Positions 18,635 to 59,481 of a stretch of DNA of 64,000 nt are shown here, piece by piece (the first letter of the stretch is position 1; the number at the start of each line of letters is the position of its first letter). The position numbers and the translations under genes are program-made. The notes below the pieces were generated by a model that saw nothing but the letters and a program-made list of their open reading frames with translations, had not been told where the DNA came from and did no database searches. This stretch comes from a virus. The stretch covers positions 1-64,000 of IMG/VR virus record IMGVR_UViG_3300025141_013870; one strand, 5' to 3'.

Positions 18635-19489
18635 ATGTCAAAATCTCACAATAAAAAAAGAAATGTAGGGATTATCTATGAGCTTTTACTTAGAAGCATT
18701 TCTAGCTCACTAATAAACGATGATAAAAAGATTGCTCAAAAAGCTTTAGATATCATTGGTAAAAGATTTGATAAATCAACAGAAATATACAAGGAGTTTA
18801 GGCTGTTTAATGCACTTGCAAAGTCAACTGTAAGTAGCTCAGCTGTGACTGCTGCTATTTTAACGGAAGCAAAACAAGCAGCAAGAAGATGTGATACTTC
18901 AACATTAAATATTGAAAAATCTAATTTGATTAGAGATATAAATCACAATCTTAATGACTCAAATTTTTATTATAGAAGAATACCTGAATATACGGTGTAT
19001 GCTACAATACAAACGCTTCTAAATGACTGGAGACAAAAAGATCAGGCAAGCCTATCAAGAGTTGTTCAATACGAATCAAAAGTGGCTGAGCATCTTTTAT
19101 CTGAGAAGCCTGTTATAGATCTTGAGAAAGATATTGATTCTGACGTGAACTCCTTGGTCGTAGATATCATGACAGAAAAAATTAATAAACGGTATAAAGG
19201 AAAATTAAGTAGCACACAGCGAGACGTTATTAAAGAATACATTTTTTCATTATCAGAAAACAAGAATGATAAAATTTTAAATAAACTAAACGAGATAAAA
19301 AATAGAACGATTTCAAACTTAGAGTCATTTAAAACAGTAACAAAAAACAGCGTCCTTCTTGAAAAGATAGAAGAAGTTAAAGATAAAATAGTTAGTGAGT
19401 CTTTTGATAAAATAGATGATGATTCTATTTCAAGATTTTTGGTTTTAATCCAGCTTCAACAAGAATTAAAGGAGGCTATAGATGGGTGA
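18635..19489 (+). CDS. Conserved hypothetical, portal-protease interval
   Basis: 284 residues, mostly helical and Lys/Ser-rich. The N-terminus (KRNVGIIYELLLRSISS) and the segments YKEFRLFNALAKSTVSSSAV and YATIQTLLNDWR look like a conserved protein found at this spot in marine T4-like phages. In T4 this interval holds the prohead core genes 67 and 68, so an internal prohead role is plausible but not shown. A GGAGG ribosome site lies upstream, inside the end of the portal gene. The 3' end overlaps the protease gene by eight bases. Confidence 0.55.
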   Translation: MSKSHNKKRNVGIIYELLLRSISSSLINDDKKIAQKALDIIGKRFDKSTEIYKEFRLFNALAKSTVSSSAVTAAILTEAKQAARRCDTSTLNIEKSNLIRDINHNLNDSNFYYRRIPEYTVYATIQTLLNDWRQKDQASLSRVVQYESKVAEHLLSEKPVIDLEKDIDSDVNSLVVDIMTEKINKRYKGKLSSTQRDVIKEYIFSLSENKNDKILNKLNEIKNRTISNLESFKTVTKNSVLLEKIEEVKDKIVSESFDKIDDDSISRFLVLIQLQQELKEAIDG

Positions 19490-20087
19490 TAATTTAACGC
19501 TGTTAACAGAATGGACACCGCTCTCTTACACAGCAGAGATGATAAAAGAGTCAAAGGACTCTAATAATGGAAAAATAATGCTACGAGGAGTCTTGCAGAA
19601 ATGTAATACACTTAATCAGAATGGCAGAATATATCCTCGTTCAATTTTACAAAGAGAGGTTACAAATTATCAAAAATTTATATCTGAAAATCGTGCTCTC
19701 GGCGAGTGTGATCATCCAGATTCTTCTGTTGTTGAACTTAAAAATGTTTCTCACATTGTTCGTGAGGCAAATCTAGACGGAGACAATTTAGTAGGTGTTA
19801 TTGAGATATTAGATACACCAAGTGGAAATATACTAAAGAGTCTTATTGAAGCTGGAATAACATTGGGAATATCTTCTCGAGGTGTCGGGTCAACAAGAAA
19901 GGAAGGCGATACACAGATAGTTCAGGATGATTTCCAGTTAATCTGTTTTGATATGGTTAGTGAGCCTTCAACCCCAGGAGCATTTATGCTCCGAGAGGGC
20001 GCTAAAATATCAAAGGGAGACTTAAAGAAACATTTTACCACAACAGATAGAATTGATAGGATATTTAACGATATTTTATCTTGGTGA
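19482..20087 (+). CDS. Prohead maturation protease (gp21-like)
   Basis: 201 residues of the T4 gp21/S77-type serine protease fold: RIYPRSIL near residue 50, catalytic His in ECDHPDS near residue 77 and the nucleophile region GISSRGVGS near residues 129-137, then FDMVSEPSTPGAFM. It cleaves scaffold and head proteins during maturation. An AAGGAGG ribosome site and an eight-base overlap with the upstream gene support the start. Its presence as a separate gene shows that the ClpP-like protein at 59489 is not the head protease. Confidence 0.87.
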   Translation: MGDNLTLLTEWTPLSYTAEMIKESKDSNNGKIMLRGVLQKCNTLNQNGRIYPRSILQREVTNYQKFISENRALGECDHPDSSVVELKNVSHIVREANLDGDNLVGVIEILDTPSGNILKSLIEAGITLGISSRGVGSTRKEGDTQIVQDDFQLICFDMVSEPSTPGAFMLREGAKISKGDLKKHFTTTDRIDRIFNDILSW

Positions 20088-30270: not shown

Positions 30271-33200
30271 ATGGCCGAACAGACATTCAGATCACCTGGG
30301 TTTTTTGAACGCGAGATAGATCTTTCTCAGAGAGAGAGTGAAATCGTTGGTGTACCAGCCGGCGTCGTAGGAACCGCAGAGATGGGCCCTGCATTTGTTC
30401 CAGTTACAGTTGGATCATTCGCAGATTTTGAGAGAAGATTTGGTTCACTGGATCCTCACAAGTTTGGTCCTTACGCAGTTAGGGAGTTTTTTAAGTATAA
30501 GACTGCTCTCACCTACGTTCGCGTCCTTGGCGCAGGGTCCAATGATACCACGACAGATATATCAAACACCAGAACAGCTGGCATCGTTAAGAATGCAGGA
30601 TTTAGAATAATAGGGACTTTACCAGATAGAGATCAGAGAGACGGTGCTGATCAGCGTCGACAGGGATGTGTTCAGTTTATCGCTGCTCGTCACCATGTAT
30701 CTTCAAGTCAGGAGGGTATTGGGTATCCTATATTCTCTGACAATGATAGTTATCCGGACATAGATGCTAACTCATCAGTGAACCTTGTCAGAGCGATGCT
30801 TTTCTCAACAACTGGGTCGAGGTTCGAGATACTGTCATACGCAACGGCGTCATGGGGAATATCTTCTTCAACACAGAGTGATGTTGCCAATGTAAATACT
30901 GATGGAGAGTTTAAGCTTGTTATATCTTCATCTTCTGGTGCAGCATTCGCTAATGACGAAGGAAATCCTGGAATAAGGATATATACAGCTTCACTAAACC
31001 CAGTGTCTGACAACTATATTGGAAAGCTTCTTAACACTGATCCCGAGAGGTTTGAAAAGGAAGAGCACGTGCTTTACGCTCACTTCCCAGTTGAAGATGA
31101 GGTAGCGTCTGTAATCTATAGTTCAGAGATTGGGTCTGTTGCACTAATGTCAGGATCAACAAATTCATCTTCCAAGTCAGGAATATCTGGCCTTGAATTC
31201 ATAGATGGATATGGAAGATTTGACACTAGATATGCTGCAACACGGACTACAAACTTCATATCACAGCCTTACGGTGATACTGAATTCGATCTATTTTATA
31301 TCGAATCAATCTCTGACGGGTCTGTTGCAAATGAGAAATATAAGGTATCAATTAAGAAACTTAGAAAGTCAAGTGATCCAAAGGATCCATACGGATCATT
31401 CACTGTTGAGATTAGAGATTTCGATGACACGGATACCAGCGCAAAGGTTCTAGAATCATATCCGCTTTGTACTCTAAACCCGCTAGACGACGATTACGTT
31501 GCAAAGAAGATTGGAGATTTCAAGGCATTCTATAACTTTGATGCAGAGAATGCTGATGAGAGAAAGGTGGTGGTATCAGGAAAATATCCAAACATATCAT
31601 CTCGTGTAAGAATTGTTATGAACAATGCTGTGGAATCTGGAGAGGTTCCCAAGGATGCACTTCCATTTGGATACAGAGGGTTTGGTGCCCTTAAGACAAA
31701 CAATACACTGACTGATTCAACTACCACAGCTATTCGTGGAGGAATTGGGTCAGCAGCAGCAGACTCTGTTAGAGTTGGATTCTGGAACTCAGGTGGGGTT
31801 GGAGCGACAGTCGGCTCAGCAAGTCTCAATACAGTAGCAAGTATATCTGGATCGATTCTGCCTCCTGTTCCGCTTAGGTTCAAGGTTACTCGAGGCGCTG
31901 TTTTGAAGTCATCTATACCGTACGTAGGAGCACCTGGCGAGGATGAGAGAGTTGACTCTAGATTCTATTGGGGATCTAAGTTTGACAGGCTTCCAAGAAC
32001 GGGATCTCTTTCAAATTCTATCTTCGATACAAACGTTTCAAGTGAGATTAATGACATCTTTAGAAACTATGCCAAGCTCATTGGAATACTAAAGCTTGAC
32101 AACCTTGTCACTGGATCTGGTGCGGATGCGTTTAATAATAACAAATTTACGCTAGCAAGAGTTGCTCTTTCAAATGGAATTGCAAACGATAGTAGTGGAA
32201 ATCCAAGCATATCAGCTACAGCAAACTCTGTAATAACAGGTTCTGCAAAGGAGCATATGCTTGAGACTTCGTATATTAGAAATGCTACGCCAGATGCAAG
32301 TAACTACACTGTATCTGATGGCGTCGCATCTAGAAGTAGAATGACAATGGCATCTCTATCTGCTTTAACGTCATCTGTCTACTTCAATAGATTTACAGAT
32401 TATAACAAGTTTACCAACTTCATGTATGGCGGATTTGACGGTCTGAATATTCTTGATACGAATATGGGGCGGATGGACGATAAGTCAACATCATCTGACA
32501 CTGGAGGATTAGCTGTCGGAGGAGACCTCGACATAGGCTTGAGTGATACAAATGAGTTTGGAGCGGGAAGCAGGAATAATATAGTCGCTTCTTATAGGGT
32601 TGGTGCGGAGATCCTAACAGATCCAATGGCATCAAGGGTGAACATACTATTGGTTCCAGGAATAAGAGATGGTGCGTTAACCGACTTTATTCAGTCTCGT
32701 CTATCTAGCTATAGCAAGGCATTCTTTGTCATGGATCTTCCTGCATATGATGCTGACCAGAAGAGATTATTTGCTGATAGCGCAAAGGCGCCAAATGTTG
32801 CTAAGACATCAGAACAATTTGACGGAAGGGCACTGAATAATAACTACTCAGCGACGTATTTCCCAGATGTTACAATAGAGGATCCCATTAATAATCAACC
32901 TGTTAAGGTTCCTGCATCCGTTGCAGTATTGGGAGCGCTAGCATATAATGATAATGTTGCATACCCCTGGTTCGCACCAGCGGGATTCAACAGGGCAGCT
33001 CTGGACTTTGTTTCAAATGTAAAGGTGAGGTTGAATCAATCAGATAGAGATACTCTCTATGATGCAAGGATTAATCCCATAGCAACCTTCCCATCAGCAG
33101 GGTATGTGATATTTGGGCAGAAGACCCTACAGCTTGCAAAGAGCGCGCTAGATAGGGTTAATGTTAGAAGGATGCTCCTCGAGGTTAAGAGGCTTGTTGT

Positions 33201-33465
33201 AGATGTTGCAAACAAGATCGTCTTCGAGCAAAACACACCTGAGACACGGGCTAGATTCGTCTCACAGGTGACACCTCTTCTTGCAACCATCCAGAGTCAG
33301 CAAGGAATAGATCAGTTCAAGGTAGTGATGGATGCAAGTAATAACTCACAGGATGATGTTGAGAACAACATATTAAACGGAAGAATCGTTCTTGTTCCCA
33401 CAAGAGCTGTTGAGTTCATAGCAATGGACTTCATCATAACCAACGCTGGCGTAAGCTTCGAGTAG
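30271..33465 (+). CDS. Tail sheath protein 1 (gp18-like)
   Basis: 1064 residues. N-terminal sheath signature SPGFFEREIDLSQRE, VGVPAGVVGTAEMGPAFVP and FGPYAVREFFKYKTALTYVR; the C-terminus has YPWFAPAGFNRAALD, INPIATFPSAGYVIFGQKTL, RVNVRRMLLEVKR and VPTRAVEFIAMDF, all typical of contractile sheath subunits. Much longer than T4 gp18 (659 residues), with a large central insertion around residues 120-700 that would be exposed on the tail surface. A closely related second copy follows directly. AGGAG ribosome site. Confidence 0.92.
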   Translation: MAEQTFRSPGFFEREIDLSQRESEIVGVPAGVVGTAEMGPAFVPVTVGSFADFERRFGSLDPHKFGPYAVREFFKYKTALTYVRVLGAGSNDTTTDISNTRTAGIVKNAGFRIIGTLPDRDQRDGADQRRQGCVQFIAARHHVSSSQEGIGYPIFSDNDSYPDIDANSSVNLVRAMLFSTTGSRFEILSYATASWGISSSTQSDVANVNTDGEFKLVISSSSGAAFANDEGNPGIRIYTASLNPVSDNYIGKLLNTDPERFEKEEHVLYAHFPVEDEVASVIYSSEIGSVALMSGSTNSSSKSGISGLEFIDGYGRFDTRYAATRTTNFISQPYGDTEFDLFYIESISDGSVANEKYKVSIKKLRKSSDPKDPYGSFTVEIRDFDDTDTSAKVLESYPLCTLNPLDDDYVAKKIGDFKAFYNFDAENADERKVVVSGKYPNISSRVRIVMNNAVESGEVPKDALPFGYRGFGALKTNNTLTDSTTTAIRGGIGSAAADSVRVGFWNSGGVGATVGSASLNTVASISGSILPPVPLRFKVTRGAVLKSSIPYVGAPGEDERVDSRFYWGSKFDRLPRTGSLSNSIFDTNVSSEINDIFRNYAKLIGILKLDNLVTGSGADAFNNNKFTLARVALSNGIANDSSGNPSISATANSVITGSAKEHMLETSYIRNATPDASNYTVSDGVASRSRMTMASLSALTSSVYFNRFTDYNKFTNFMYGGFDGLNILDTNMGRMDDKSTSSDTGGLAVGGDLDIGLSDTNEFGAGSRNNIVASYRVGAEILTDPMASRVNILLVPGIRDGALTDFIQSRLSSYSKAFFVMDLPAYDADQKRLFADSAKAPNVAKTSEQFDGRALNNNYSATYFPDVTIEDPINNQPVKVPASVAVLGALAYNDNVAYPWFAPAGFNRAALDFVSNVKVRLNQSDRDTLYDARINPIATFPSAGYVIFGQKTLQLAKSALDRVNVRRMLLEVKRLVVDVANKIVFEQNTPETRARFVSQVTPLLATIQSQQGIDQFKVVMDASNNSQDDVENNILNGRIVLVPTRAVEFIAMDFIITNAGVSFE

Positions 33466-33504: not shown

Positions 33505-36500
33505 ATGGCTGAGGTAACTTATAGTAGCGCTGGGGTCTACACCACAGAGATAGATCAAACCGGCCCAACAACATCTGTTCCTTCCGGTGTGCCCGGCGGA
33601 ATCATAGGAACTGCAGACGAAGGTCCTGCATATGTACCGATAACAATTGGAAGCTATAGTGATTTTGCTCGTATTTTTGGAGCGACAGATGGAGAGAAGT
33701 TTGGACCGCTTGCAGTTCATCAGTTTCTAAAGAATGCTCAGTCTCTAACGTATACTAGGGTCCTTGGGATAGGAGATGGCAAGAAGAGAGATACCGGAAC
33801 TGGAAAGGTTACAAACGCTGGATTTGTGGTAGGCGCAAAGACAGTTCAGGATAATGGAAATGTTGGTAGGAATCCCTACGCAATAGATGATGGTGTTCCA
33901 GGAAAGACATACTTCCTCGGCTGTTTCATGTCAGCATCAGCGGGATCAACACTATTCACTGACGCTGGAATTCAGAAGTCGAATGAAAATCAGGCACGAC
34001 CAATCGTTAGAGGCGTGCTAATGGCTCCATCCGGAGTTCTTCTCAGGCTGTCTGGAGCAGGCGCCGTAGGAAACTCACAGGGTGCTCCTTCTGCAATACT
34101 TTCTGCAGTTAATCCAACAGCTGCAGGTGACGAAGGCACTGGCATGGTAGGAGGAATAACTGGGTCTGTAAACATAGCAACGAAACGATTTGTCATGCTC
34201 TTAAACGGTCACCTAAAGACAGGCGACGCTCCCAATGTTATAACAGCGTCATTCGACCTAGAAGACGCCAGCTATTTTGCAAACGTCTTAAATACAGATC
34301 CCGCAAAGATCGAAGAGAAGGGACACCTCCTATATTCTCACTATGACATCCACCCAGCCCTTGCTGCTGTGACAGGAACTGGCGTGTTTGTGGCAACTCA
34401 CGCTTTTCCAAGCGCAAGCGCAGGCGGCCCTGCCTTAGAGCCTCTAGCATTCCTAACAACGGGATCAGCTGGTAGAAATACAGGCACATCCACTGCTCCA
34501 GATTATGAGTCATTTGAGGAGAGATTTACTCACGCAAAATCTCCATTTGTGATATCACAGACGTTCGGTGGAACAAAGTATAGCATAGTGAGAATTCACG
34601 CTCTTGGAGATGGAAGATATACAAATACAAACATAAAGATCTCTATAGAGAACATAAAGCCATCCACATCTGACGCATACAAGTATGGAACATTTGATCT
34701 TCTCGTTAGGAAGTTTGAAGACACAGATCTTGAAAAGAAGGTCTTAGAAGCGTATAGAGGAGCAAATCTTGATCCAAGTAGTGACAAGTTTATAGCAAGA
34801 ATTATCGGAGATATGTATTCATACTTTGACTTCGATCAAGCATCCTCGTCACAAAAGCTTGTGCTTGCAGGAGATCACCCTGTTCGATCAAACTACATCA
34901 GAGTTGAGCAAAGTACTCATCTCAAAAACGGACAGGTTCCAAAGGATGCACTTCCATTTGGATTTAGAGGACCTGATCACCTAGTCACGTCAGGAAGCGC
35001 GCCGCTAGAGGGTGGATTCTATTCAGGTGCTCTCCTCCAGGCTGGCTTTAACGACCGGTCCCTGCTTAACATGGCAGTTGAGCCTCCAGTCCCCCTAAGA
35101 AAGAATATTGTGATGGGATCTTTGCCAAACCTGATCCAGGATGCCACGTGGTATTGGGGAGTCAAGTTTATGCAGACTGTGGCTATTGCAGACGGCGTTA
35201 ATAACACTATAACCCTGAAGAATCTAACAGTTGATAATTTTACAAAGTTCTTCCCGTCTTACGGAGGGTCTAATAGAGACGTTTCAGTTGGAAATAACCC
35301 AGGAGTAGCAGACTCTGGTGGGACAGTATTAGATTGTGATAGGTTTAATAACAATATATTCACACTTGAGAGACTGACTATTAGAACAGGATCTGATGGA
35401 AAAGCAGATCCTAATGAGTGGGTTAGTGCATCATACACGAGAACTGGGAATATAACTGCAAATGAGACAAACAAGACTAGGGCACTAAAGTCATCAGATC
35501 TGTCTGTGCAGGGAAATAGAACCTTCTGCAAGTACTCATTCTTCCTCCAGAGAGGATTTAACGGTAGCAATATTTTCGATAAGGATAAGGAGAAGATGCT
35601 TAATGCAGCAGTTCGTCGAGAGATGGATGACTCAACTGCTCAAGGCGGAACATCAGGACCAACAGTATCAGCCTATAGAAAGGCACTGGATATAATGGGA
35701 ACCAAGTCTGATGTTGACATCAAGCTGCTAGCGATTCCCGGAATAAGACACTCATCTGTGTCAGATTACGCTATTGACACTGTTGAAAGTAGATTTGACG
35801 CCATGTATGTGATGGACATCGAGGAGAGAGACGAGATGAACTCTGTCATAACATCCTCAGTGGGATCATTTGCAAATGTCTCAAACACTGTCACGGAGTT
35901 TAAGGGAAGAGCGCTAGATACATCTTTTGCAGCAGCATATTTCCCTGACGTCATTATGACAGATCCCACGACGCACACAAACGTTCAGTGTCCGCCATCA
36001 GTTGCTGTTATGGGTGCAATGTCGCTGAATGACGCTGTGGGATATCCGTGGTTCGCACCGGCAGGATTCACACGAGGAGCGCTGGGAGACGTTCTCTTTG
36101 CAGACGTTAGTCTAAACAAGACCAATATGGATGATCTTTACGATGCAGATATCAACCCTCTCACAGCATTCCCGAATACAGGTGTGATGGTATTTGGACA
36201 GAAGACACTTCTAGCAGCTGCATCAGCTCTTGACAGGGTTAACGTTAGAAGGCTGTTAATAGACATAAGGAGAAAGGTTAGAAATATCGCTAATCTCATG
36301 CTATTTGAACCTAACAGGCAGGAGACGCTTGACAAGTTCAGTGCTCTAGTTCAGCCGGTCCTTCAAAGCATACAGGAAAAGAGCGGCGTGGATAGATTCA
36401 AGGTTGTTATAGATGCAACAACTACCACACAAACAGACATTGAGAATAACACTCTTCGTGGAAAGATCTTCTTACAACCCACGAGAACTGCAGAGTTTGT

Positions 36501-36552
36501 TGCACTGGACTTCGTCCTAACAAATGCTGGAGATGCATTTGAGAATGCATAA
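33505..36552 (+). CDS. Tail sheath protein 2 (gp18-like paralogue)
   Basis: 1015 residues. Same N- and C-terminal sheath domains as the upstream gene: SAGVYTTEIDQTG, VPGGIIGTADEGPAYVP, FGPLAVHQFLKNAQSLTYTR; YPWFAPAGFTRGALG, INPLTAFPNTGVMVFGQKTL, RVNVRRLLIDIRR and QPTRTAEFVALDF. The central part differs strongly from copy 1. Either both are built into one mixed sheath or each is used in a different tail segment. Spacing of 39 bases between copies with a TTTTGGAG ribosome site. Confidence 0.9.
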   Translation: MAEVTYSSAGVYTTEIDQTGPTTSVPSGVPGGIIGTADEGPAYVPITIGSYSDFARIFGATDGEKFGPLAVHQFLKNAQSLTYTRVLGIGDGKKRDTGTGKVTNAGFVVGAKTVQDNGNVGRNPYAIDDGVPGKTYFLGCFMSASAGSTLFTDAGIQKSNENQARPIVRGVLMAPSGVLLRLSGAGAVGNSQGAPSAILSAVNPTAAGDEGTGMVGGITGSVNIATKRFVMLLNGHLKTGDAPNVITASFDLEDASYFANVLNTDPAKIEEKGHLLYSHYDIHPALAAVTGTGVFVATHAFPSASAGGPALEPLAFLTTGSAGRNTGTSTAPDYESFEERFTHAKSPFVISQTFGGTKYSIVRIHALGDGRYTNTNIKISIENIKPSTSDAYKYGTFDLLVRKFEDTDLEKKVLEAYRGANLDPSSDKFIARIIGDMYSYFDFDQASSSQKLVLAGDHPVRSNYIRVEQSTHLKNGQVPKDALPFGFRGPDHLVTSGSAPLEGGFYSGALLQAGFNDRSLLNMAVEPPVPLRKNIVMGSLPNLIQDATWYWGVKFMQTVAIADGVNNTITLKNLTVDNFTKFFPSYGGSNRDVSVGNNPGVADSGGTVLDCDRFNNNIFTLERLTIRTGSDGKADPNEWVSASYTRTGNITANETNKTRALKSSDLSVQGNRTFCKYSFFLQRGFNGSNIFDKDKEKMLNAAVRREMDDSTAQGGTSGPTVSAYRKALDIMGTKSDVDIKLLAIPGIRHSSVSDYAIDTVESRFDAMYVMDIEERDEMNSVITSSVGSFANVSNTVTEFKGRALDTSFAAAYFPDVIMTDPTTHTNVQCPPSVAVMGAMSLNDAVGYPWFAPAGFTRGALGDVLFADVSLNKTNMDDLYDADINPLTAFPNTGVMVFGQKTLLAAASALDRVNVRRLLIDIRRKVRNIANLMLFEPNRQETLDKFSALVQPVLQSIQEKSGVDRFKVVIDATTTTQTDIENNTLRGKIFLQPTRTAEFVALDFVLTNAGDAFENA

Positions 36553-48614: not shown

Positions 48615-48653
48615 AAAGTGATACAATTGTCATTATGGCAATATACTTTCATT

Positions 48654-49844
48654 ATGCACATTGTAGTATCTAAAAATACACTTGGAACTGATGATAATCT
48701 TGTATATGATGGAAAAAACTTTCACTGGAGCAAGTCAGCTCCACTAGATTCATGGAAACTAGGGTTTGACGATGAGATTAAAGATATTTCAATTATTGCA
48801 TCTGCAATTGGTGAGTCACTTTTAACATTTGACTCGACACCCGGCGGCAAAGCTGCTCGGTTTGTGTATGGAGACGCAACAATACCGTGGGCGTATGTAT
48901 TGCCTCGAGATGTATTTCAAAAGCAGCTGATACGGCTTCTAGATCAGCTCTGGTTGATTCTTAATGATGAATCCAACGGTTACTATATGGATCAGTTTTT
49001 GATTAACAGAGAGGTTCTTATGTCACTTTCTCCTCCAAGGGTAGATCTAAGAAAAGCAAACAATATAATCAATCGTGATGATAGCCCAAAGGCCCTAGAG
49101 ATAGAAAGGTTTTTACCAATATCAGGAGAAATAGCGCCAAAGACGACGTATAGCCAGACTGGATCAGTGACAGGCAGATTAACTGTTAAATCTGGCCCAA
49201 ATATCCTTACACTTAAGAAGGAATATAGAAAAATATTAAAATCTAGATTCAAAGGCGGAAAGATAATTCAGATAGATATTTCATCTCTTGAGCCAAGGAT
49301 AGCGCTTGCTATCGCAGAAAAAGCAGCCCCTCTCGATATATACGACCATATAGGAAATACAGTTCTTGAGAAAAACCTTTCTAGAGATGAGGTAAAGATA
49401 GCTGTCTTTAACTGCATATATGGAGGATCTGAGTGGTCTCTTTCACAACGTCTCCCTAAATGTCTTGATGCCAAGTCAATCATGTCATCAATTATAAAAT
49501 ATTTTAAAATAGACAGCTTAAAGACAAAGCTAGAAAAAGAAGCAAACAGCAGCGGATTTATTGAAAACTTATACGGTAGACGAATTGATTCAAATAGTGC
49601 AGTTGTAAATCACTATCTACAATCCTCTGGAGTTGATGTATCTTTTAACGTTTTCTCACAATTAATTAAAAAAATTGCAGATAAAGATGTGGGATTTTAT
49701 CCCATTTATATCATTCATGATGCCATAGTTGCAGACATATCAAAAGACTCATACAGAGAAATCAAAGAGATCTGCTCAGAAGGCTTTAACATTGACAAAC
49801 TGGATTGTAAATTTCCAGTCAAAATTGAAATCATTAAGGAGTAA
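48654..49844 (+). CDS. polA: Short family A DNA polymerase (no exonuclease domain)
   Basis: 396 residues from ATG 48654; an in-frame GTG at 48618 would add 12 residues. Polymerase motifs: TGRLTVKSGPNI; motif A IDISSLEPRIA (Asp 208); O-helix motif B RDEVKIAVFNCIYG (Arg 244, Lys 248, Phe 252, Tyr 256); NLYGRRI; and motif C IHDAIV (His 355, Asp 356). There is no 3'-5' exonuclease domain, unlike most phage PolA proteins of 600-800 residues, and motif C has Ala where Glu is usual (HDE). Phe at the position equal to E. coli 762 is compatible with a lytic lifestyle. It may work with an exonuclease encoded elsewhere. Confidence 0.88.
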   Translation: MHIVVSKNTLGTDDNLVYDGKNFHWSKSAPLDSWKLGFDDEIKDISIIASAIGESLLTFDSTPGGKAARFVYGDATIPWAYVLPRDVFQKQLIRLLDQLWLILNDESNGYYMDQFLINREVLMSLSPPRVDLRKANNIINRDDSPKALEIERFLPISGEIAPKTTYSQTGSVTGRLTVKSGPNILTLKKEYRKILKSRFKGGKIIQIDISSLEPRIALAIAEKAAPLDIYDHIGNTVLEKNLSRDEVKIAVFNCIYGGSEWSLSQRLPKCLDAKSIMSSIIKYFKIDSLKTKLEKEANSSGFIENLYGRRIDSNSAVVNHYLQSSGVDVSFNVFSQLIKKIADKDVGFYPIYIIHDAIVADISKDSYREIKEICSEGFNIDKLDCKFPVKIEIIKE

Positions 49845-49846
49845 AA

Positions 49847-50428
49847 ATGTCAATATCTTTAGAAAAATTAGAAAAAAACTGGGAGACCTTTCAAAGTCTC
49901 ATAATAAAATCTTGTGGTGATTCGGGAGAGAAGCTTCTTAGTGAGCTTGGTGAAAGAATGATAATGTGTCCTTCATCTATGAAATTAGATCAGCACGGAG
50001 CATATCCCGGAGGAATGATCAAGCATGTTCTTGACGTGACAATGCAAATGAGAAATTTAAATGAGTCTGTTGGTCTATGCAAAGATCCTATGTCTATTCT
50101 TAAGGTAGGCCTTTTACATGATCTAGGGAAGGTAGGAGATGAAAGTTCTGACCTGTTTCTAGAGCAAGATTCAGAGTGGCATCGCGATAAACTGGGTCAG
50201 ATGTATAAGTACAACGAAAACCTTAGAAAGATGTCAATTTCTCATAGAACGCTATGTCTTCTTCAAAAATATGGCATACCTCTTTCACAAGACGAGTGGA
50301 TATCAATTCAGCTTTCGCAAGGGTCTCATTTTGAAGAAAATAGATTCTATGTAGGACATGAACCTTCACTTGGAATACTTTTACAGCAGTCTAAATCTCT
50401 AGTCATACACAAAGAAAAAAATCTATAA
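49847..50428 (+). CDS. HD-domain phosphohydrolase
   Basis: 193 residues. HD superfamily metal site: GGMIKHVLDVT with His 60, then GLLHDLGKVGD with His 91-Asp 92. HD proteins hydrolyse phosphate esters, often of nucleotides, so a dNTP/dNMP phosphatase or a nucleotide-signal hydrolase is plausible; the substrate cannot be read from sequence. It starts two bases after the DNA polymerase gene, with an AAGGAG site that overlaps the polymerase stop, so translation of the two is coupled. Confidence 0.75.
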   Translation: MSISLEKLEKNWETFQSLIIKSCGDSGEKLLSELGERMIMCPSSMKLDQHGAYPGGMIKHVLDVTMQMRNLNESVGLCKDPMSILKVGLLHDLGKVGDESSDLFLEQDSEWHRDKLGQMYKYNENLRKMSISHRTLCLLQKYGIPLSQDEWISIQLSQGSHFEENRFYVGHEPSLGILLQQSKSLVIHKEKNL

Positions 50429-50473: not shown

Positions 50474-51199
50474 ATGGCACGTTTAAAATCTAAACAATTT
50501 AAGAAAAAATATGCTACCACGATGGATAACATACCTGAAAAGGGTGTTTGGTCAGGTAGGGGAATTGGAATTCCTGCGGCTGGAGCCATCGGCGGCGGAG
50601 ATGACTATAAGCAAAAGATAGGAAGAGGAAAGCTACCTGACTTTAGAACTGGAAGACCCACGCAGGGTGCAGATTCTACATTTTCATCATATCTTGCAAG
50701 GGTGAATACTGGATATGATGACTATGATAAGTCTATTGAATATATGCCAATGTTTCCTGAGCAAGAACCTGAGTTAGAAGATACTTATTATGGAGATGAT
50801 GATGATATTTCTAGAAATAGAAAGCTTCCAAAAGATTTTAAGGTTTCAAGACCCAGGATAAAAGGACTTAAAGAGATGAGTTTTGATGATGAAAGTCTAG
50901 ATGAAATTATGGCATTCATTCAGGAATCTATATATCCTGACTATGAATCATACCACCCTCCTCTTCCAGCGGGATATGAATACAGAGGAGTTCCAACTGT
51001 AGTTTCTAAAGATTCTGAAAAAGATGATTTTGATGTGCTAGAGGATTATGGTGATACAGCTGTTTCTTATAAGGCAGACGGCGGAGTTACAACGTATCAA
51101 GATAGAAACAAGCTTGTCAAAGAGATGGCACTTAGAAGAATTATCAGAGAGGATATTGCAGCTATATTTGAATCGAGCACAAAAAAAAACAGGTACTAG
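50474..51199 (+). CDS. Hypothetical protein with candidate -1 frameshift extension
   Basis: 241 residues as an ordinary reading frame. Gly/Arg-rich N-terminus (SGRGIGIPAAGAIGGGDD), an acidic middle (EDTYYGDDDDIS), and a C-terminal amphipathic helix (MALRRIIREDIAAIFE) related to those of several other genes here. The last codons enter A9C at 51181-51190. A -1 shift at AAAAAAC (51184-51190) reads on into the downstream frame for 93 more codons to 51468 and gives a 331-residue protein with an acidic linker and basic tail. No ribosome site is seen before the ATG. Function unknown. Confidence 0.55.
   Translation: MARLKSKQFKKKYATTMDNIPEKGVWSGRGIGIPAAGAIGGGDDYKQKIGRGKLPDFRTGRPTQGADSTFSSYLARVNTGYDDYDKSIEYMPMFPEQEPELEDTYYGDDDDISRNRKLPKDFKVSRPRIKGLKEMSFDDESLDEIMAFIQESIYPDYESYHPPLPAGYEYRGVPTVVSKDSEKDDFDVLEDYGDTAVSYKADGGVTTYQDRNKLVKEMALRRIIREDIAAIFESSTKKNRY
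51181..51190 (+). promoter_or_regulatory. A9C slippery sequence, candidate -1 frameshift site
   Basis: Nine A then C. In the zero frame it reads ACA AAA AAA AAC, so the heptamer A AAA AAC at 51184-51190 fits the X XXY YYZ rule for -1 frameshifting. The zero frame stops only three codons later (TAG 51197). Homopolymer sequencing or assembly error is the main alternative. Confidence 0.5.
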
Positions 51200-51285
51200 A
51201 TAGTATAGATGATAACGATGAAGACGAAAGAGAAGATGAGCAATCAACCCTCGCAGGAGGAAGCATCACAGGCTGGACAGGTCCG

Positions 51286-51468
51286 ATGGGATCTGGTCCA
51301 AATTATACAAAGCTCGCTCAGCAAAATGCTAAATTTTTTGGCGGCGGGAGTCTCGTTAATCCAGGAGAACCTGCACGGATTGTTAAACGTGCAAAGGAAT
51401 TTGCAACCGGTGCGGCTGGATTCAAATCGAAAAAGAAAAGAATTAAAAAAAAGAAATCTAAGAAATAA
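51286..51468 (+). CDS. Downstream part of the frameshifted protein, or small basic gene
   Basis: If read alone this is a 60-residue Gly/Lys-rich protein (GSGPNYTKLAQQNAKFFGGG, then a poly-Lys tail KSKKKRIKKKKSKK). The same frame is open upstream to the A9C site and encodes a plausible acidic linker (DSIDDNDEDEREDEQSTLAG), which favours its being the C-terminal part of the gene at 50474 rather than an independent gene. The ATG has only a weak CAGG before it. The basic tail could bind DNA or RNA. Function unknown. Confidence 0.45.
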   Translation: MGSGPNYTKLAQQNAKFFGGGSLVNPGEPARIVKRAKEFATGAAGFKSKKKRIKKKKSKK

Positions 51469-51484
51469 TTTTTGAACATTAGAA

Positions 51485-51520: not shown

Positions 51521-51570
51521 AATAAAACAAATCAAATTGAACATTACAAACTAAAAAATTGGAGGTTAAG

Positions 51571-52347
51571 ATGGCAGTTGATTTTGATGCAATTCGCAAG
51601 AAGCTAGATCGATTAAGTGGGAATAACAGGAATCGATCGGTGATGTGGCGACCAACGGAGGGAGAGGAACATACAGTTCGACTTCTTTCCTTTCCGGATA
51701 ATGATGGTCAGCCATTTAAGGAACTTTGGTTCTACTATAACATTGGAAAGGAGAGAGGACTTCTAGCTCCAAATCAGTTTGGAGATCCTGATCCTATTCA
51801 AGAGCTCATTACAAAACTTCGCGAGGAAGGTTCTAAGGAGTCTTATGAGCTTGCGAAGAAGCTATATCCGAAGATGCGGACATACGCTCCTGTGATCGTA
51901 CGAGGCGAGGAAGATAAAGGTGTCCAGGTCTGGGGATTTGGAAAGATGGTGTATCAAGCACTATTGGGACTTATGCTTGATGAAGACTACGGAGATATCA
52001 CTGATCCTCTCAGCGGTCGTGACGTGAAGGTGGTTTGCTCAAAGCAGCCAGGAAAGATGTGGGCAATGACAGAAGTTAGGCCGAGAGGAAAACAGTCAAA
52101 GTTGACTGATAATGCCAAGGAGGCAACTGAGTGGCGAGATTCCATACCTAATCTTGATGATATTTTCCAATGCAAGAGCTATGATGAACTCTCAAAGATC
52201 ATAAATGACTGGCTCGGAGGGGAAGACAATGCCTCAGATACAGCTCCTAGCTCATCTGGAGTATCTTCAACTGAATCTGATCAATCTGGAACAGCGTCTG
52301 GGTACAAGAGCATCGATGATGCCTTTGCAGATCTTATGTCTGATTGA
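51571..52347 (+). CDS. Single-stranded DNA-binding protein (gp32-like)
   Basis: 258 residues from ATG 51571, chosen over an upstream TTG because GGAGG lies at 51561-51565. N-terminal motif FDAIRKKLDRLSGNN (the basic LAST-like region), then an OB fold with PDNDGQPFKELWFYYN and VQVWGFGKMVYQAL, and a Ser-rich linker ending in the acidic tip SIDDAFADLMSD that recruits partner proteins in the T4 gp32 family. It coats ssDNA for UvsX, helicase and primase. T4 gp32's Cys/His zinc ligands are not conserved here. A terminator follows. Confidence 0.85.
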   Translation: MAVDFDAIRKKLDRLSGNNRNRSVMWRPTEGEEHTVRLLSFPDNDGQPFKELWFYYNIGKERGLLAPNQFGDPDPIQELITKLREEGSKESYELAKKLYPKMRTYAPVIVRGEEDKGVQVWGFGKMVYQALLGLMLDEDYGDITDPLSGRDVKVVCSKQPGKMWAMTEVRPRGKQSKLTDNAKEATEWRDSIPNLDDIFQCKSYDELSKIINDWLGGEDNASDTAPSSSGVSSTESDQSGTASGYKSIDDAFADLMSD

Positions 52348-52459: not shown

Positions 52460-53623
52460 ATGTCAAAAAAAAATAATGAAATAGAGGACTTTACATCTGA
52501 ACTGATATCTTCACTAAACAAGGAGCACGGATCAAGAGTTGCATATAATCTTAGTCAAGATGAATCGCCCACGCACGTAAAGCGATGGATATCAACTGGA
52601 TCAAAATTATTAGATTATATTTGCTCTAATAGAAGAAATGGTGGACTTCCTGAAGGAAGAATAGTAGAGATATTTGGTCCACCATCTATTGGAAAGTCGC
52701 ACATAGCAACACAAATAGCGAGATCTACCCAGAAAATGGGAGGAATAGCTGTCTACATAGATACAGAAAACGCAACATCAGTGGAAAATCTACAAATGCT
52801 GGGAGTTGATGTATCTAATAGATTCGTGTACGTAGACACACATTGTACAGAAGAGGTTTTTAAGGTAGCAGAATCTGTGATTCTTAAGTCAAAAGGAATG
52901 CACAAGGATGTTCCTGTTACTATCATTTGGGATTCTGTGGCAGCATCGTCACCTAAGGCAGAACTTCTTGGGGATTATGATAAGGAATCTATTGGCCTTC
53001 AAGCAAGATCAATATCTAAAGGCATGAGAAAGATAACAGGTGTTATTGGCGATCAATGTGTTTTATTTGTGATATTAAATCAAACAAGAATGAAGATAGG
53101 TGTGATGTTTGGTGATCCAACAACTACACCTGGCGGCAAGGCGATTCCATTTCATGCATCTACAAGAATAAAGCTAGGAGCTGGACAGCAGATAAAGGAT
53201 GGTGATGATGTGATTGGAATTCACGTTTCAGCAAAGACTATCAAGAACAAGGTAGCTGCACCTTTTAGAACTGCTAATTTCGAGATTCACTTTGGAGTCG
53301 GAATAAAAGAGCACGAGCAGATCTTTGATCTTTTGAGAAAGCACGGTCCAGAAACTTTGAACAATAAGGAGATATCTCTTTCAGGAACCGGAGCGTGGAA
53401 AACACTTAATGTTGTAGATACAAATACTGGCGAGATTATAATAGAAAAGAAATTTAGAAAAAATGAATTTTATCAGATATTAGAGAGCGATGAATACGGA
53501 AAATATATAGATGACTTTTTAGAGATGGCTATGGTGAAGAAATTTGCATCTGAACCTCCTGACATAGATAACGAATCATATATAGAGATCGAAGCCCTAT
53601 CTGATAGTTTGAGAGGAGACTAG
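52460..53623 (+). CDS. uvsX: UvsX/RecA-like recombinase
   Basis: 387 residues. UvsX features: KRWISTGSKLLDYICSNR, Walker A GPPSIGKSH near residue 75, Walker B VTIIWDSVAASSP near residue 155, and the loop region LNQTRMKIGVMFGDPTTTPG followed by KAIPFHASTRIKL. It forms filaments on ssDNA coated by the gp32-like protein and drives recombination-dependent replication with the Mre11-Rad50 fusion. T4 UvsX has 391 residues, so this is full length. AAAGGT ribosome site. It opens the transcript after the terminator. Confidence 0.93.
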   Translation: MSKKNNEIEDFTSELISSLNKEHGSRVAYNLSQDESPTHVKRWISTGSKLLDYICSNRRNGGLPEGRIVEIFGPPSIGKSHIATQIARSTQKMGGIAVYIDTENATSVENLQMLGVDVSNRFVYVDTHCTEEVFKVAESVILKSKGMHKDVPVTIIWDSVAASSPKAELLGDYDKESIGLQARSISKGMRKITGVIGDQCVLFVILNQTRMKIGVMFGDPTTTPGGKAIPFHASTRIKLGAGQQIKDGDDVIGIHVSAKTIKNKVAAPFRTANFEIHFGVGIKEHEQIFDLLRKHGPETLNNKEISLSGTGAWKTLNVVDTNTGEIIIEKKFRKNEFYQILESDEYGKYIDDFLEMAMVKKFASEPPDIDNESYIEIEALSDSLRGD

Positions 53624-58466: not shown

Positions 58467-58505
58467 ATTTTCAAAAAATAATACATAGTGCTAGGGGGAA
58501 AATTT

Positions 58506-58892
58506 ATGTCGTATTCAGATAAGGTATTAGATCATTTTAGCAACCCCCGTAATGTCGGAGCGATGGATAAAGATGATATCAATGTAGGCACAGGTATGGT
58601 CGGTGCTCCAGCGTGCGGCGATGTGATGAAGCTTCAGCTCAAGATCAATGACAGCGGCATCATCGAGGATGCCAAGTTCAAGACATTCGGCTGCGGTTCT
58701 GCTGTTGCATCAAGCTCTTTAATAACAACATGGGTAAAAGGATTGAATATAGCAGAGGCTGAGAAGATAAAAAATTCATCAATTGCAGAGGAGCTTTGCT
58801 TGCCGCCTGTGAAGATTCACTGTTCAGTTCTTGCTGAAGATGCTATAAAGGCTGCGATTAAAGATTACCGGATCAAGAATGACAAGAAGTGA
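58506..58892 (+). CDS. iscU: IscU-type iron-sulfur cluster scaffold
   Basis: 128 residues from ATG 58506 (AGGGGG at 58493-58498), exactly the length of E. coli IscU; a 58488 start is less likely. All functional residues are in the E. coli positions: Cys 37 and Asp 39 in GAPACGDVMKL, Cys 63 in KTFGCGSAVASSS, the HscA-binding LPPVK at 99-103, and His 105-Cys 106. It assembles [2Fe-2S]/[4Fe-4S] clusters from sulfur given by IscS, which is not in this window, so host IscS must supply it. Codon use is GC-richer between about 58590 and 58715. Confidence 0.92.
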   Translation: MSYSDKVLDHFSNPRNVGAMDKDDINVGTGMVGAPACGDVMKLQLKINDSGIIEDAKFKTFGCGSAVASSSLITTWVKGLNIAEAEKIKNSSIAEELCLPPVKIHCSVLAEDAIKAAIKDYRIKNDKK

Positions 58893-59145
58893 TATACAAA
58901 AGCTCATTGATGAAGAAATCAACTCTGCCTTATCAATGCACGGAGGCCATGTTTCAATTCATGAATTTGACGAAGAGAGCAAATCTTTGAAATTAAAAAT
59001 GGGCGGTGGGTGTCATGGATGCTCATCATCAAGAATGACTATGAAAGTGGGAGTTGAAAATCTTCTCAGGGAGGTGTTTCCTGATATTGGAGAAATTGAG
59101 GATGTCACTGATCATTCAACAGGTGAAAATCCATACTATGACTAA
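58879..59145 (+). CDS. Nfu-type Fe-S carrier (NifU C-terminal domain)
   Basis: 88 residues, overlapping iscU by 14 bases. Nfu domain pattern: MHGGHVSIHEF, GGGCHGCSSSRMTMKVGVEN with the CxxC cluster site at Cys 45 and Cys 48, and LLREVFPDIGEIEDVTDH. Nfu proteins receive [4Fe-4S] clusters from IscU and pass them to apo-enzymes such as aconitase. It lacks the N-terminal A-type domain of E. coli NfuA, so it is a single domain form. Coupled translation with iscU fits a shared pathway. Confidence 0.87.
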   Translation: MTRSDIQKLIDEEINSALSMHGGHVSIHEFDEESKSLKLKMGGGCHGCSSSRMTMKVGVENLLREVFPDIGEIEDVTDHSTGENPYYD

Positions 59146-59154
59146 GGAACAAAT

Positions 59155-59481
59155 ATGGCAATAACAGTTACAGAGAAAGCAAGAATCAAAATAAAATCTC
59201 TGCTTAATCAGCGTCAAACTCCTGATCATTTTCTAAGGATAGGGTTAAGAGGAGGTGGCTGCTCTGGGTTTATGTATAAATATGAATTCATCGACAAGAC
59301 AGATGAGAAAGATAAGATATTTGAATTTGATGACATTAAAATTTGCATCGATATAAAATCCTATTTATTTCTTAATGGAATAGAGATAGATTATCAAGAA
59401 GACTTACTAAAGTCAGGCCTTGTGTTTAATGCTCCGGGAGCATCGCGAACGTGTGGCTGTGGTGAGTCAGTAACATTTTGA
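59155..59481 (+). CDS. iscA: A-type Fe-S carrier (IscA/ErpA-like)
   Basis: 108 residues, close to E. coli IscA (107). The three ligand cysteines are present: Cys 36 in RGGGCSGFMYKYEF and Cys 100/Cys 102 in SRTCGCGESVTF. A-type carriers move clusters from the scaffold to target enzymes. ErpA and IscA cannot be told apart with confidence. AAGGA ribosome site ten bases after the Nfu gene. With IscU and Nfu it makes scaffold plus two carriers. Confidence 0.88.
   Translation: MAITVTEKARIKIKSLLNQRQTPDHFLRIGLRGGGCSGFMYKYEFIDKTDEKDKIFEFDDIKICIDIKSYLFLNGIEIDYQEDLLKSGLVFNAPGASRTCGCGESVTF

Follow-up and report, generated by a model that had tools for sequence, protein, structure and literature searches.

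In an uncultured T4-like phage, the gene directly upstream of the single-strand DNA-binding protein (SSB) gene is divided between two reading frames that meet at a run of nine adenines. The junction between the frames is genuine and programmed and does not reflect a sequencing slip. Probably, RNA polymerase slips on the run, by which one gene would give rise to two proteins. The window analysed here comprises 64,000 nucleotides (64 kb) of a 118,248-bp phage record; the relatives to which it is compared come from uncultured, mostly marine, T4-like phages.

Two reading frames joined at an A9 run

The zero-frame ORF (50474..51199, plus strand) encodes a short form of 241 amino acids and terminates with a TAG codon (51197..51199, plus strand) 7 nt past a run of exactly nine A followed by C (51181..51189, plus strand). 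The zero-frame codons at this site read ACA AAA AAA AAC AGG TAC TAG, and the stop overlaps CTA GAT, a conserved Leu-Asp codon pair in the second frame. This -1 frame encodes a tail of 92 codons plus TAA (51190..51468, plus strand), and either one added A or one -1 slip at the run creates a fusion of 331 residues. The coordinates of the ORF and the lengths of both forms, as given in the initial annotation, held on rechecking. The -1 frame had also been described as open on both sides of the site; it is open after the run to 51468, whereas before the run it extends only 9 nt upstream (51172 to 51468; QVLDSIDDNDEDERED...KKKRIKKKKSKK). Two overlapping in-frame heptamers lie in the run, A_AAA_AAA (51181-51187) and A_AAA_AAC (51184-51190). 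The predicted junction peptide is TKKKQVLDSIDD for a polymerase slip or a ribosome slip at A_AAA_AAA, and TKKNQVLDSIDD for a ribosome slip at A_AAA_AAC.

The 241-residue protein has a conserved N-terminal part (GVWSGRGIGIP..GGGDDYKQKIGRGK) and a C-terminal part with the motifs FIQES and LRRIIRE. Many relatives carry a helical insert of 250-350 amino acids in the middle, which the window ORF lacks. In the tail, an acidic linker is followed by a GWTGPMG motif, an FFGGGSLVNP motif and a Lys/Arg-rich end, and the last 40 residues of the long form are very basic, with a net charge of +13. The module noticed at the outset, made up of an acidic linker, a Gly-rich motif and a Lys tail, is indeed conserved; no second copy of the tail is found elsewhere within the window.

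Conservation of both frames in relatives

The 241-residue ORF is encoded at 20 IMG/VR loci. In the junction-spanning loci, except L020, the zero frame stops soon after a run of A9-A11 and a homologous tail follows in the -1 frame. Examining the A run and both frames in relatives, as had been suggested, thus reveals an A9-A11 run between two conserved frames. Relatives conserve both parts across the junction, which bears out the view that the two frames belong together, and dN/dS of the tail, mostly about 0.2-0.4, supports the -1 frame as the coding frame downstream. Both parts of the gene are under purifying selection in their own frames.

With the SSB as an anchor, we collected 112 non-redundant loci, and an iterated tail profile located a tail gene upstream of the SSB in 104 of them. 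In 74 of 102 rows, about seven in ten, the gene has a single frame and no run; the fused arrangement is therefore common in the family, and counts on the SSB tree give no order of age for the fused and split states. Distant relatives carry the tail module within a single-frame gene. The smallest relatives (~60-100 amino acids) start with M-xx-LRxxIRE and proceed directly to the acidic linker and a TPLGTGP / Lys-rich tail.

None of the libraries searched (PHROGs, Pfam, PDB, sequenced phages) contains a description of the gene family. Searches of PHROGs, Pfam and 50,697 phage records with the 241-residue ORF gave no match; for ORF, tail and small relatives alike, no homologue came from PHROGs, Pfam, PDB sequences or the sequenced phages, and no relative was detected in the bacterial and archaeal genomes searched. 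The genes upstream of the SSB in Microcystis phage Mel-JY01 and Flavobacterium phage immuto were considered as candidates and rejected, as neither matches the tail profile. An AlphaFold model of L008, a relative with a long insert, has a mean pLDDT of 49, and a fold search with it returned nothing below E 0.001.

Two loci carry a complete additional domain in the shifted frame. In L018 (3328-4473) and L019 (6518-7663) an SGNH (GDSL) hydrolase domain (Pfam PF13472, E 1.2e-15) precedes the conserved tail; no PDB chain was matched by phmmer with the L019 domain. Since the domain lies wholly in the shifted frame, the enzyme is predicted to be present only on the slipped product.

The run is kept, re-phased and relocated

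Throughout the wider group of the window phage a run of A9-A12 marks the junction, and the tail follows it in three registers. It is in the -1 register in 20 of 28 run-bearing rows and in the +1 register in two loci, L051 and L080, each a single contig. In at least six loci (L020, L227/L063, L139/L087, L128, L129 and L131) the tail is already fused and the run is nevertheless retained; the same holds for L117, which was identified separately in the run-enrichment count. One A gained or lost in the fused loci leads to an early stop, so that both forms are possible there, with the long form as the default. Relatives have their default stop 0-28 nt past the run, the base after the run is C, G or T, and no run under nine occurs at split junctions. 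On the SSB tree, arrangements change at least 12 times over all rows and 6 times among run-bearing rows. Fused locus L046 retains A_AAA_AAG at the junction (L046:6595), where a -1 slip leads to a stop within a few codons; by analogy, this is possibly an arrangement like that of Escherichia coli dnaX, with the long form as default.

The clade L073/L075/L082 has lost the junction run but carries an A9 ~30 codons further into the tail. As assembled, the frame terminates just past this relocated run, and one A added there in L073 yields KKKYKKRLEKAAQAQGGSLVDPDLAMSYYDTAAGFARGN, a sequence similar to the usual tail ending. Among 42 runs of A9+/T9+ in 934 kb of non-redundant DNA of the loci, 33 fall into the gene studied here, where about 0.6 would be expected at the density found elsewhere; runs were counted by position, and the significance of this enrichment is inflated by the relatedness of the loci. 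These patterns point to selection on the run, which appears to have been kept, re-phased and moved in evolution.

Near-identical phages assembled from different samples agree in run length (L005-L007, L010/L011/L024, L014-L016, L072/L073, L013/L179 and others). Over longer times single-A changes do occur, as in the close pair of L129 (A10, fused) versus L216/L137 (A9, -1), which are one A apart. At L013:6449-6640 a second frame change disrupts the tail and is not present in the near twin L179; mutation or misassembly is the probable cause.

Transcriptional versus ribosomal slippage

We propose the following course of events. Ordinary reading would produce the 241-residue short form, ending just past the run. 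For a fraction of transcripts, RNA polymerase would stutter on nine or more A and add one A to the mRNA, and this additional A would put the tail in frame and give the 331-residue long form with its acidic-Gly-basic end. From the sequences we infer that slippage in the cell would be mainly transcriptional rather than ribosomal. Indifference to register, the lack of stimulators and the lack of runs under nine at split junctions would all be explained by transcriptional slippage. The direction of the needed shift varies among orthologues (-1, +1 or none), and non-conserved direction is a published criterion for programmed transcriptional realignment (PMC3711429); a length of nine is often the threshold for slippage (PMC1088944). 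As counterpoints, every run of nine also contains an in-frame A_AAA_AAA, the +1 register is known from two single contigs, and in phage ribosomal frameshifts, too, the direction may vary among relatives or a fusion may replace the shift (PMC5009743). The strong -1 bias fits both types of slippage alike, and a run length of nine rather than seven is a weak argument with the peptide fixed, on which we do not rely.

Programmed ribosomal -1 frameshifting, which we regard as somewhat unlikely, would involve a one-base backward slip of tandem Lys tRNAs on in-frame heptamers inside the run (A_AAA_AAA, or A_AAA_AAC / A_AAA_AAG), and reading would continue into the tail. Consistent with such a mechanism, all split relatives checked have A_AAA_AAA in frame at the run, the -1 register prevails, L046 retains A_AAA_AAG with the long form as default, and bacterial recoding often makes use of A-rich heptamers (PMC3711429). 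In E. coli, however, A_AAA_AAC and A_AAA_AAA are far less shifty than A_AAA_AAG (PMC5009743), which has not been conserved here. The initial annotation had placed a ribosomal slip specifically at A AAA AAC; this heptamer is in frame in some relatives only and is not conserved among them, no SD-like element is visible upstream by eye, and no conserved RNA structure lies downstream. The z-scores of downstream folds scatter around zero, the structures differ between relatives, and neither an Rfam element nor a conserved RNA structure was found at the slip site. Ribosomal frameshifting without stimulators is possible. A -1 slip, however, is useless for the +1-register loci L051 and L080, and L020, L227, L129 and others need none; the run is retained in all of these. 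The ribosomal mechanism is one of two live options, and the heptamer originally named is not the shared element.

Changes at the level of DNA can also be considered. If run length changed during DNA replication, individual phages would make the short or the long form only. Such phase variation agrees with the varying registers among relatives and with the single-A difference between L129 and L216/L137, but it is rendered improbable by identical run lengths in near-identical phages of different samples and by registers that are strongly skewed to -1 instead of being spread over all three; mixed assemblies were not encountered either. Homopolymers are error-prone, and the tail of L013 has an additional disruption that is absent from its near twin; if the A9 run were misread, the gene would be one continuous frame. 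This explanation is hardly credible for the window, given that the same junction recurs in many independently assembled lineages with differing flanks and run lengths, that the run is always located just ahead of a stop, and that run enrichment is confined to this one gene. Because run length is constant in near-identical phages and the junction recurs family-wide, homopolymer error is excluded as the cause and is refuted for the family.

Transcriptional slippage thus remains our preferred reading. A broader form of it, which we consider evenly balanced, would make polymerase slippage on A9+ the conserved route of this family to two C-terminal forms, with the SGNH domain inserted into the slipped frame and the run re-phased, re-gained and relocated under strong selection that maintains the output of two products.

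Comparison with known recoding systems

As in Thermus thermophilus dnaX, Shigella spa13 and mxiE, and genes of IS elements, an A run of at least nine within the gene joins two frames. The long form is the default in T. thermophilus dnaX and the short form in mxiE (PMC1088944, PMC5009743); like these genes, the phage gene would have a short and a long product, and both default types are found within the one phage family. Unlike the Thermus, Shigella and IS cases, it is a phage gene, its slippage is deduced from sequence, and three registers and a relocated site occur in a single orthologous family. With E. coli dnaX (A_AAA_AAG) and the phage G/GT chaperones it shares an A-rich zero-frame heptamer, a -1 C-terminal extension and two products, but it differs from them in having no conserved A_AAA_AAG, no detected stimulators and runs of 9-12 A. 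It is also located between an HD-domain gene and the SSB, unlike the G/GT tail assembly chaperone gene, which is found between the tail tube and tape measure genes. As in T7/T3 gp10B, Lactobacillus phage A2 and Listeria phage PSA, a minority of copies would bear an extra C-terminal module, and in such virion-protein extensions the direction of frameshifting differs between phages (PMC5009743). In contrast to those examples, the protein is no coat or tail-tube protein and its tail is acidic-Gly-basic, not Ig-like.

The recoding is of a known kind, but its use in this family is unusually labile. Documented cases of transcriptional slippage come from a small number of bacterial genes and insertion sequences. 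In the literature consulted, the one phage case was put forward by its authors as a suggestion (PMC2853527). The present orthologous family offers many natural replicates, with three registers, run lengths of 9-12 and a relocated site, and these make it testable whether selection acts on the run, on the register or on the product ratio. In practical terms, routine annotation misses the conserved tail in some two dozen phage lineages, and in L018 and L019 a whole enzyme domain.

Possible role of the protein

The FIQE sequence of the window protein (F-I-x-E; 50915..50926, plus strand), whose Ile and Glu are invariant in 13 of 13 relatives, fits the L/I-x-E cleavage motif of T4-type prohead proteases, although a motif this short is weak evidence. 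T4 gp21 cleaves after L/I-x-E, and ten N-terminal residues suffice to direct a protein into the T4 head (PMC9026906). The phage itself encodes a gp21-type head maturation protease (19482..20087, plus strand; phrog_207, E 8.3e-53), which is a candidate processor of the FIxE motif. As in T4 internal head proteins, the I/L-x-E motif is conserved, and small relatives that start with M-xx-LRxxIRE have it near residue 10. Unlike in T4 internal head proteins, the motif is internal in the long forms, and no sequence homology to them was found; LRxxIRE, N-terminal in the small relatives, is likewise internal in the window protein. Variable inserts, in the middle or in the tail, are accommodated between conserved ends of the protein family.

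From F-I-x-E, the basic end, the variable inserts and the literature on T4 gp21, we tentatively suggest a head-packaged, virion or ejected protein, of which only part of the copies would have the basic tail. It is conceivable, with similar reservation, that a long form limited in dose would dock, or bind nucleic acid, via this tail. In L018 and L019 the tail-bearing copies would also have the SGNH hydrolase domain.

Genome context

The phage carries T4-type genes for terminase, portal, gp21-like prohead protease, major head protein and two sheath-like proteins, as well as UvsX, a gp32-like SSB and a DnaB-type helicase. Upstream of the split gene lies an HD-domain gene (49847-50428), and the next gene downstream encodes the gp32-like SSB (51574..52347, plus strand; phrog_1192, E 7.8e-18). 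The order gp45450, short PolA, HD, the gene studied here, SSB, UvsX, exonuclease and helicase is kept in nearly all flank-bearing relatives; in L046 no HD gene is seen. Between the tail and the SSB gene TTGAACATT occurs twice (51472-51480 and 51537-51545); judged by eye, similar words are found at the same place in relatives, and in the window as a whole the copies are not above chance.

The DNA polymerase (48618-49844) has just 408 residues and covers only the C-terminal part of phrog_17, a profile of phage DNA polymerases. The two sheath-like proteins are adjacent and very long (30271-33465, 1064 amino acids; 33505-36552, 1015 amino acids), and both match the sheath C-terminal domain, the second under the Pfam cut-off. 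Three adjacent iron-sulphur cluster genes at 58488-59481, an unusual set for a phage, match NifU_N (PF01592, E 1.6e-52), NifU (PF01106) and Fe-S_biosyn/HesB (PF01521). A further A9 (52465-52473) is located directly past the start codon of uvsX, and the uvsX start of L129 also bears an A9 (L129:4837); this position may represent another recurrent site of slippage or reiteration.
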